Below are positions 16,136-18,819 of a DNA stretch of 64,000 bases, in pieces. Where the stretch lies: contig NZ_FXXA01000002.1 of the NCBI RefSeq assembly GCF_900184265.1, positions 2,466,539 through 2,530,538 on the forward strand, given 5' to 3'. Both the position numbers and the translations under genes were made by a program. This DNA comes from Eggerthella timonensis. Lineage in GTDB: Bacteria; Actinomycetota; Coriobacteriia; Coriobacteriales; Eggerthellaceae. Below the pieces are notes generated by a model. The model had not been told where the DNA came from. It worked only from the letters and a program-made list of their open reading frames with translations, and made no database searches. Each line of letters opens with the position of its first letter. Position 1 is the first letter of the stretch.

Positions 16136-17500
16136 GTGGCCGACATGACCGTGAAGGGCGCGGCGCTGGCCGCCGCCGCGGCGGGCGACTTCTCCGACCT
16201 GCCCATCCACAACCCCGCCGTCGAGTGCGCCTCGCGCGAGCGCATCCGCGCCATCCAGCTGGAAAAGCTGATCGCGCAGGTGGCCTGGATCTACGAGCGC
16301 GTCCCGTGGTACCGCGCGCGCATGGACGCCCTCGGCGTGGCGCCTGCCGACATCAAGACGCTCGACGACGTGCGCAAGCTCCCGTTCACGGACAAGTCCG
16401 CGCTGCGCGACACGTTCCCGTACGGCCTGTTCGCCGTGCCGCTCGACGAGGTGGTGGAGCTGCACGCGTCCTCGGGCACCACGGGCAAGCCCATCGTGGT
16501 GGGCTACAACGAAAGCGATATGGCCATGTGGGCCGACTGCATCATGCGCCTCGTTCAGATGGCCGGCGTCGTGCCGGGCGACCGCGCGCAGATGGCGTTC
16601 GGCTACGGCATGTTCACGGGCGGCTTCGGCCTGCACTACGGGCTGCAGAAGCTCGGCTGCATGATGATCCCCGCCGGCTCGGGCAACACCGAGCGCCACA
16701 TCGCCATGATCGAGGACTACGGCACCACCGTCCTCGTTGCAACGCCTTCCTACGCGCTGCACGTGTGCGAGGTAGGGGAGCGCATGGGCTACGACTGGGC
16801 GAAGTCGCCGCTGCGCGTGGGGCTGTTCGGCGGCGAGCCGTGCCCGCCGGGCCTCAAGGCCGAGATCGAGAGCCGCATGCACATCGTGTGCACCGACAAC
16901 TACGGCCTCACCGAGGTCATGGGCCCGGGCGTGTCGGGGGAGTGCCTCGCCTCGCGCGACATGCAGCACTTGGCCGAGGACCACTTCCTGTGGGAGGTCG
17001 TCGACCCTGAGACGGGCGAGCCAGTGCCCGACGGGGAGATGGGCGAGCTCGTGCTCACGCCGCTCGGGAAGCAGGCCATCCCCGTGCTGCGCTACCGCAC
17101 GCACGACCTGACCCGCGTGGTCGTCGAGCCCTGCGCCTGCGGGCGAACCACGGCACGCATGCAGAAGGTGCGCGCACGCTCCGACGACATGCTCATCATC
17201 CGCGGCACGAACGTGTTCCCCTCCCAGGTGGAAGACGTGCTGGCCGGCATCGACGGCGTCACGCCGCACTACCGCATCGTCGTGGAGAGCGTGGGCGGCC
17301 TCGACCGCATGACCGTGCACGTGGAGCTCAAGCCCGAGGCGTTCTCGGACTCGTTCGAGGACATGGAGAACCTGCGCCGCTCCATCGAGGAGAAGCTCAA
17401 GGGCGTGCTGCTCGTGGGCGTGCGCGTGAAGCTCGTCGAGCCCGGCGGCATCGAGCGCTCGCTCGGCAAGACCAAGCACGTCGAGGATCTGCGGAAGTAA
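16136..17500 (+). CDS. Phenylacetate-CoA ligase family enzyme (PaaK-like, copy 2)
   Basis: A ligase of about 454 residues, paralogous to copy 1. It has the motif LHASSGTTGKPIVVG, the YGLTEVMGPG segment, CACGRTTARMQKVRARSDDML, and a C-terminal IERSLGKTKHVEDLR with the catalytic Lys. It carries an N-terminal extension (TVKGAALAAAAAGDFSDL) absent from copy 1. The exact start is uncertain: GTG at 16127 overlaps the ACT stop but has its GGAAGG too close, GTG at 16136 is better spaced, and ATG at 16145 is also possible. As last gene of iorA-iorB-ACT-paaK it probably interconverts the aryl-acetyl-CoA made by IOR and the free acid, which could conserve energy as ATP if run in reverse. Confidence 0.9.
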   Translation: MADMTVKGAALAAAAAGDFSDLPIHNPAVECASRERIRAIQLEKLIAQVAWIYERVPWYRARMDALGVAPADIKTLDDVRKLPFTDKSALRDTFPYGLFAVPLDEVVELHASSGTTGKPIVVGYNESDMAMWADCIMRLVQMAGVVPGDRAQMAFGYGMFTGGFGLHYGLQKLGCMMIPAGSGNTERHIAMIEDYGTTVLVATPSYALHVCEVGERMGYDWAKSPLRVGLFGGEPCPPGLKAEIESRMHIVCTDNYGLTEVMGPGVSGECLASRDMQHLAEDHFLWEVVDPETGEPVPDGEMGELVLTPLGKQAIPVLRYRTHDLTRVVVEPCACGRTTARMQKVRARSDDMLIIRGTNVFPSQVEDVLAGIDGVTPHYRIVVESVGGLDRMTVHVELKPEAFSDSFEDMENLRRSIEEKLKGVLLVGVRVKLVEPGGIERSLGKTKHVEDLRK

Positions 17501-17526: not shown

Positions 17527-17618
17527 GGCACGGGGCGCCATGCTCAAACGGTCCTGAGCTCGCACGGACGCCCCAGCGGGGCGTCCGGCTCGTGCGGAAC
17601 TGCGCGGTGCCCCGTGCC
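17527..17618. repeat. Structured hairpin element A (related to element B)
   Basis: The outer stem pairs 17527-17539 (GGCACGGGGCGCC) with 17606-17618 at 12 of 13 positions. Inside is a perfect 9-bp hairpin, GGACGCCCC (17566-17574) and GGGGCGTCC (17578-17586), with loop AGC, extended by CGCAC/GTGCG. Between the stems lie the unpaired words GCCATGCTCAAAC and TGCGGAACTGCGCG. Element B at 17778 carries the same words in the opposite orientation but with different stem sequences. Confidence 0.75.
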
Positions 17619-17730
17619 AGGGCACCCCGCGTTGAAACCCTTCCGCACGTTCGAGCGCTCGACCTGCGAAGGCGCTCGATGCCGCCGGTTCGCAAACGTG
17701 TTGCAATATCCCTCGAAGGAGAAGGTCGCG

Positions 17731-18819
17731 ATGTACGAGAAGGGCTTGTGCGAAGAACCGGATGACGTCTGCCGTGCGGCCGGGGCCTCCTCGGAGGGCG
17801 TCACGCGCAGACCCGCAGCGACGTGGACGGTCCAGCGGACCGTCCGCCAAAGCGAGGACTGTTTGAGCATGGCGCCCTCCGAGGAGGCCCCGGCCCAAGG
17901 CCCTGTGGTCGGCCGGTTCGCGCCGTCTCCGACGGGGCGGATGCACGCGGGCAACGTGTTCGCGGCGCTCACGGCGTGGCTCGTGGCGAAGTCGCAGGGC
18001 GGAAAGATCGTGCTGCGCATCGAGGACCTCGACGCCGAGCGATCGAAGCCCGCCTACGTCGACGCGGCGCAGCGCGACTTCGAGGCGCTCGGGCTTTTCT
18101 GGGACGAGGGGCCTTACTTCCAGCACGACCGCACGGAAGCCTATCGCGCGGCCTTCGACGAGCTGCGCGCCCGCGACCTCGTCTACCCCTGCTTCTGCAC
18201 GCGCGCCGACCTGCATGCGGCCTCGGCGCCGCACCGCGGCGAGAAGCCGGTGTATCCGGGCACCTGCCGCAGCCTCGGCGACGAGGAACGGGAGGCCCGC
18301 GCACGAGAGCGCACGCCCGCGCAGCGCCTGCTCGTGCCCGACGAGCGCATCGCCTTCATCGACCAGGTGCAGGGGCCTTACGAGCAGAACCTCGCTTCCG
18401 ACTGCGGCGACTTCCTCGTGCGGCGCTCGGACGGCGCCTTCGCCTACCAGCTGGCCGTCGTCGTAGACGACGCGGCACAGGGCGTCACGTCGGTGGTGCG
18501 CGGCGTGGACCTTTTGTGCTCGACGCCGCAGCAGCTCTACCTTCAAGGGCTGCTCGGCCTGCCGCATCCGACCTATGCGCATATCCCCCTGCTCGTCGCC
18601 GAGCGCGACCGGCGCCTCTCGAAGCGCGATCGCGACGCCGCGCTCGACGCGCTGCTCGAGCGCTTCAAGACGCCCGCAGGCGTCATCGGGCACATCGCCG
18701 GCATCACCGGACTCGCTCCCACGTGCGATCCCGCCACGCCCGAGCAGCTGTTGGCGACGTTCGACCCCACCGCGCTGCCCGCAGCCTTCGACGACCTTGT
18801 GCAGGTGCGCTGGAGGTAG
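17731..18819 (+). CDS. gluQ: Glutamyl-Q tRNA(Asp) synthetase (YadB/GluQ-RS)
   Basis: A truncated class I synthetase paralogue that attaches glutamate to queuosine in tRNA(Asp) instead of to a tRNA 3' end. The ATP-binding signature is GRFAPSPTGRMHAGN, followed by IVLRIEDLDAERSKPAY. Zn-type cysteines appear in YPCFCTRADL and YPGTCR, and the KMSKS-like loop is RRLSKRDRD. The anticodon-binding domain is missing, as expected. The start is debatable. ATG at 17731 has a very strong AAGGAGAAGG and gives 362 residues with a 60-residue N-terminal extension. That extension is encoded mostly by hairpin element B. ATG at 17869 (weaker site) gives the usual family N-terminus. Confidence 0.9.
   Translation: MYEKGLCEEPDDVCRAAGASSEGVTRRPAATWTVQRTVRQSEDCLSMAPSEEAPAQGPVVGRFAPSPTGRMHAGNVFAALTAWLVAKSQGGKIVLRIEDLDAERSKPAYVDAAQRDFEALGLFWDEGPYFQHDRTEAYRAAFDELRARDLVYPCFCTRADLHAASAPHRGEKPVYPGTCRSLGDEEREARARERTPAQRLLVPDERIAFIDQVQGPYEQNLASDCGDFLVRRSDGAFAYQLAVVVDDAAQGVTSVVRGVDLLCSTPQQLYLQGLLGLPHPTYAHIPLLVAERDRRLSKRDRDAALDALLERFKTPAGVIGHIAGITGLAPTCDPATPEQLLATFDPTALPAAFDDLVQVRWR
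17778..17895. repeat. Structured hairpin element B (inverted relative to A)
   Basis: The outer stem is 23 bp and perfect: 17778-17800 against 17873-17895. The inner hairpin is GGACGGTCC (17825-17833) and GGACCGTCC (17837-17845), again with loop AGC. On the minus strand it contains GCCATGCTCAAACAGTCCT (17857-17875) and CTGCGGGTCTGCGCG, matching element A between its stems. It overlaps the 5' part of the gluQ reading frame. Confidence 0.75.

Follow-up and report, generated by a model that had tools for sequence, protein, structure and literature searches.

Elements A and B, located at the paaK-gluQ boundary in the window (the whole 64,000-nucleotide stretch of the Eggerthella timonensis genome G000 analyzed here), are two copies of one dispersed palindromic repeat family, previously undescribed, in gut Eggerthellaceae. 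Neither the window nor the copies had a plausible match in Rfam 15 at the gathering or a permissive threshold, and the literature searched contained no publication in which the core words appear in a related context. The family is best read as a kind of dispersed palindromic repeat that resembles the REP and Rickettsia palindromic elements (RPE) and is a member of neither. With moderate confidence, we suggest that the copies owe their dispersal to mobility, as non-autonomous repeats comparable to REP and RPE, and that they are mobilized by a putative factor which recognizes the core when the hairpin is single-stranded or extruded. After insertion the arms would drift in sequence yet stay complementary at the DNA level, because template switching (or selection for DNA hairpins) would copy one arm onto the other.

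The features of A and B are listed in Table 1. The two-strand core shared by the elements and their unrelated outer stems, pointed out in the preliminary description, are all seen in the sequence, as are the three-base loops; the inner hairpin, given there as 9 bp in both, has this length in B, whereas in A it has 10 bp. The core word GCCATGCTCAAACNGTCCT has two exact matches in the 64 kb compared to 0.03 expected, and since the same core recurs genome-wide, the likeness of A and B is far beyond chance. Element A lies 3' of the paaK stop codon (17498-17500), and B overlaps the gluQ start. The RNA folding z-scores of A and B, each on both strands, range from -4.4 to -10.9 relative to shuffles. 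A perfect 17-nt inverted repeat has one half at the end of paaK (17442-17458) and the other in the spacer that separates A from B (17672-17688).

Table 1. Features of the paaK-gluQ region in window coordinates (CM R1, covariance model of the family)
Feature	Positions	Strand	Remarks
Element A, palindromic repeat	17527..17618	+	core word on + strand; CM R1 78.5 bits
A outer left arm GGCACGGGGCGCC	17527..17539	+	12/13 paired with 17606-17618
A core strand 1 GCCATGCTCAAACGGTCCT	17537..17555	+	
A inner hairpin, 10 bp	17565..17587	+	17565-17574/17578-17587, AGC loop
A core strand 2 GCGGAACTGCGC	17594..17605	+	
A outer right arm GGTGCCCCGTGCC	17606..17618	+	12/13 paired with 17527-17539
Spacer between A and B	17619..17777	.	
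Element B, palindromic repeat	17778..17895	-	core word on - strand; CM R1 100.4 bits
B outer arm, 23 bp	17778..17800	.	23/23 complementary to 17873-17895
B core strand 2 GCTGCGGGTCTGCGCG (minus strand)	17804..17819	-	
B inner hairpin GGACGGTCC/GGACCGTCC, 9 bp	17825..17845	.	17825-17833/17837-17845, AGC loop (minus strand GCT)
B core strand 1 GCCATGCTCAAACAGTCCT (minus strand)	17855..17873	-	+ strand supplies ATG 17869, after GAGGA
B other outer arm	17873..17895	.	+ strand within first gluQ codons if ATG 17869 is used
gluQ, tRNA glutamyl-Q(34) synthetase	17869..18819	+	likely start ATG 17869; NCBIfam TIGR03838

Of 138 Eggerthellaceae genomes, 75 contain the core word with at most one mismatch, in up to 20 copies per genome, while a reversed-core control was almost empty. 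The covariance model R1, built from 31 copies, had 13, 32, 24, 67, 66, and 18 matches in single genomes; the counts of 13 and 32 belong to the genome of the window (G000) and its congener G001, and those of 67 and 66 to two members of genus g6. G003 has one match and G002 has none. These counts are slight overcounts, because palindromes were sometimes matched on both strands; distinct copies number about 11 in G000 and 30 in G001. Thus the additional copies that had been predicted for Eggerthellaceae do exist. G000, G002, and G003 also contain numerous copies of a different dispersed repeat, TCATCCTGAGCGGAG..GTCGAAGGATCC.

A copy is about 85-125 bp long and consists of an outer stem, core strand 1, a variable inner hairpin, core strand 2, and the other side of the outer stem. 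In well-matched copies, strand 1 has the consensus GTGC-TCARAC-AGTCC-T, and strand 2 the consensus GCGGAACT-(G)C-GCRC. The internal loop formed by the two strands is conserved, and the outer stem, with a median length of about 30 bp, is copy-specific. In a set of 48 copies, the stem feet are enriched in ACCTG/AACCT on the left and in GTTGA on the right, ACCTG standing at the 5' end of 17 copies compared to 0.6 expected. At four loci the copies are nested, with a full core residing within the inner hairpin of another core.

The stems covary strongly. Of the 39 pairs in the alignment of 31 copies, 27 vary on both sides, and the covariation score is 0.523 compared to 0.152 in shuffles (0 of 500 reach the observed value) and 0.10-0.17 for slid partners. 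Pairing scores of at least 30 were obtained for the own arms of 65 of 85 exact-core copies, as opposed to 3 of 505 comparisons with swapped arms. The family is shown to be dispersed and multicopy, with a conserved core and covarying stems; the absence of either further copies or covariation, which would have counted against the preliminary description, was not observed. Covariation of this strength agrees also with a structured 3'-UTR RNA, that is, a transcribed core hairpin whose internal loop is protein-binding or catalytic and which affects mRNA 3' ends or stability. We consider this explanation rather unlikely, partly for the following reason. In RNA helices, G-U is normally accepted much more readily than A-C, and a clear excess of G-U is expected on the RNA's own strand. 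Isolated mismatches in the distal arms (positions 14 and beyond) comprise 40 G.T and 46 A.C cases, and with this lack of a G-U excess on the core strand, a structured RNA transcribed from a single strand is not supported; a comparison with tRNAs involved two molecules, too few to calibrate the expected G-U tolerance. In the core-proximal arms, the mismatches are mostly A.C, which read as G.T on the opposite strand and are partly due to common descent within subfamilies. Hence the strand symmetry is only distal, a point against the reading preferred here.

Since the distal preference for G-U is absent, pairing looks maintained at the DNA level and not by selection on one-strand RNA. Between B and its ortholog in G073, a genome from another genus, four pairs were exchanged on both sides without loss of pairing, two became T.G, and two broke. 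Together with the distal mismatch counts, these compensated changes favor upkeep of the arms at the DNA level. Replication template switching has been documented as a mechanism of such upkeep (PMC8794818), and the repeats resemble the hairpins maintained by it in having compensated stem substitutions that do not require G-U intermediates; the published cases are RNA genes, whereas here the mechanism is proposed for a dispersed repeat family. Two simpler accounts of the arms were rejected: they are not plainly hypervariable, as orthologs in G000 and G003 have identical arms, and they do not derive from an inverted target duplication, as two inspected empty sites lack arm-like sequence. Different core subtypes occupy one infB-rbfA site in three species. 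Downstream of the element at this site, a third segment complements its right arm and, as assessed by eye, tracks it between the three species, which fits copying between repeats.

The position of the copies relative to genes is strongly biased. In G000, G001, and G006, 49 of 60 copies come after a same-strand gene and six after an opposite-strand gene; by our count, the preceding same-strand stop codon is at most 53 nt from the model start in 42 copies. Typically, a copy directly follows a stop codon and has its core in sense orientation. This orientation bias speaks against mobile repeats and suggests a role in transcripts. It is an argument for a structured 3'-UTR RNA, as are the vertical retention of copies across genera and the circularly permuted cores of other phyla, a pattern of local RNA motifs. 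Such an RNA is difficult to reconcile with the loss of nearly all copies in two congeners (0 and 1 matches), with copies inside ORFs in both orientations, and with those within operons such as infB-rbfA, pheS-pheT, and the etf genes (gene names assigned by reading the proteins). The operonic and intragenic copies argue as well against intrinsic transcription terminators with a conserved loop sequence, which we regard as quite unlikely despite the location directly after stop codons. By inspection, a U-tract after the GC-rich hairpin is clear in Hydrogenedentota, where an A-tract and a U-tract flank the stem as in a terminator, and is absent from most Eggerthellaceae copies; moreover, a terminator does not need a fixed internal loop. 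In G003, simple GC-rich hairpins occupy two orthologous sites where relatives carry the element, a point in favor of terminators.

Among the copies within genes, in-frame insertions were found in hisH (in three species), pyrD, the M18 aminopeptidase gene, the N-terminal part of fabD, and, in two species, the gene of one unnamed protein. The HisH profile match is broken into two stretches, as expected with an insert. Both the pyrD and the aminopeptidase loci, which carry insertions in G001, are empty in three congeners. The term "hairpin-type mobile element", used in the preliminary description, fits these in-frame and lineage-specific insertions. At the same time, many copies reside at orthologous sites in G000, G001, and G006, and many are common to two genera at identical sites. 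Insertions in one species that are absent from its congeners, and the inheritance of many copies at orthologous sites, are thus both shown, and the family is old but not static; G002 and G003 carry zero and one match. The conserved sites count against mobile repeats, as a functional 3'-end element would also be kept at sites across two genera.

The paaK-gluQ site is itself variable. The gap between the two genes is about 370-400 bp in the window and about 10 bp in three congeners of the same gene order, which lack the insertion of A, spacer, and B. Positions 22-144 of the spacer are 91% identical to the orthologous locus in G073, the only close match among the 138 Eggerthellaceae genomes, and the orthologous B, with its ATG, is kept there. 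The A-spacer-B block would therefore represent an insertion between paaK and gluQ, with the B copy now serving as the gluQ start region. At the position of A, the G073 locus has a hairpin with a 26-bp stem, a different core and inner sequence, and a similar GACCTGCACGGG foot.

The insertion bears on the start of gluQ. An alternative in-frame ATG at 17731, preceded by AAGGAG (17716-17721), reads through B, and this frame is open across B in G073 too. The region downstream of it has no clear coding signal, and in the resulting product TIGR03838 is matched from residue 60 onward. In the three congeners gluQ starts about 10 bp past the paaK stop codon, about 8-10 codons before the VVGRF motif, and the N-terminus read from ATG 17869 has a similar length. 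The doubt about the long start expressed earlier is therefore justified, and ATG 17869 is likely the gluQ start. Its position in the B core right after GAGGA, the folding of B as RNA at about -100 kcal/mol, and the retention of B with its ATG in G073 could mean that B is a local device that sequesters the start and controls GluQ translation. This is very unlikely, as three congeners of the same gene order lack B and most copies of the family are not at gene starts.

The closest analogies among known systems are partial. REP sequences and BIMEs form GTAG- and CGTC-tagged super-families of 20-40 bp near gene 3' ends (PMC3733652). The Eggerthellaceae repeats are likewise high-copy dispersed palindromes near gene 3' ends, often in inverted pairs and in some cases within ORFs, but they are 85-125 bp long, and their two-strand internal loop is fixed while the stems are free to differ in sequence. 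Canonical REP mobilized by RAYT (TnpA_REP, PF01797) would account for this placement, for the inverted pairs, and for the intragenic copies, and RAYT-like genes are present in G000 and other genomes. This explanation is largely refuted and highly improbable. At the stem ends of 48 copies, the GTAG foot is not enriched (2 compared to 1.0 expected; CTAC, 1 compared to 1.3), and CGTC is weakly raised on one side (7 compared to 2.8). No core flanks the Y1_Tnp/RAYT genes at the 30 Eggerthellaceae loci and 30 loci from other phyla examined, the occurrence of Y1_Tnp genes does not follow copy number, and G008, with 67 matches to the model, has no PF01797 (Y1_Tnp) match. No transposase for the family was identified, which counts against mobile repeats.

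Rickettsia palindromic elements are palindromes of about 100-150 bp found in frame within unrelated protein genes (PMC10969869), and the in-frame insertions in HisH, PyrD, the M18 aminopeptidase, and the FabD N-terminus are of the same type. Relative to the published description of RPE, the present repeats differ in their host (Eggerthellaceae), in their copy-specific stems, and in the intergenic position of most copies after stop codons. Similar to MITEs, the repeats are short, non-autonomous inverted-repeat elements with lineage-specific insertions, but the conserved part is the center and not terminal inverted repeats, and a parent IS was not found. Target duplications were not found either, the empty sites being too diverged to delimit one.

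Outside the family, exact matches to the 16-base core are expected by chance a couple of hundred times in the 257-Gb collection, and so single distant matches prove little. However, at 94 of 112 scored loci the partner strand is present as well, at a distance of at most about 70 nt and in either the normal or the permuted order. Core and partner strand occur together in Hydrogenedentota, Deltaproteobacteria, Planctomycetes, Betaproteobacteria, Desulfobulbaceae, and Lachnospiraceae, the outer pairing being weaker in the permuted copies. Judging by these sequences, homology of the core across phyla is likely but not proven. A more tentative possibility is that the core, occurring in both circular permutations in Coriobacteriia, Hydrogenedentota, Betaproteobacteria, Deltaproteobacteria, Lachnospiraceae, and others, is a widespread recognition or catalytic motif of a new palindromic mobile super-family with a putative hairpin-processing enzyme, or that it acts as a small nucleic-acid enzyme in its own right. 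The likeness of ACAGTCCT to the hairpin ribozyme was rejected, as it is limited to a short word and the second domain is absent.

The repeats thus represent a gut-bacterial family able to enter genes of biosynthetic enzymes without breaking the frame. Since stem sequence and stem pairing are uncoupled in it, the family offers a natural test of template switching versus selection for perfect hairpins, and the cross-phylum core points to an unrecognized hairpin-binding or hairpin-cutting factor. Three matches of the core word were found in viral contigs. At five loci of Aminicenantes, the core word is embedded in a recurring context that lacks the usual partner strand. Finally, at six betaproteobacterial loci, permuted cores are part of a larger repeat of about 230 nt, which starts near AAAGTAACCAAAGAAGGCGACCCC, ends with GGCGGCGCACAGGGG, and resides in long non-coding regions.
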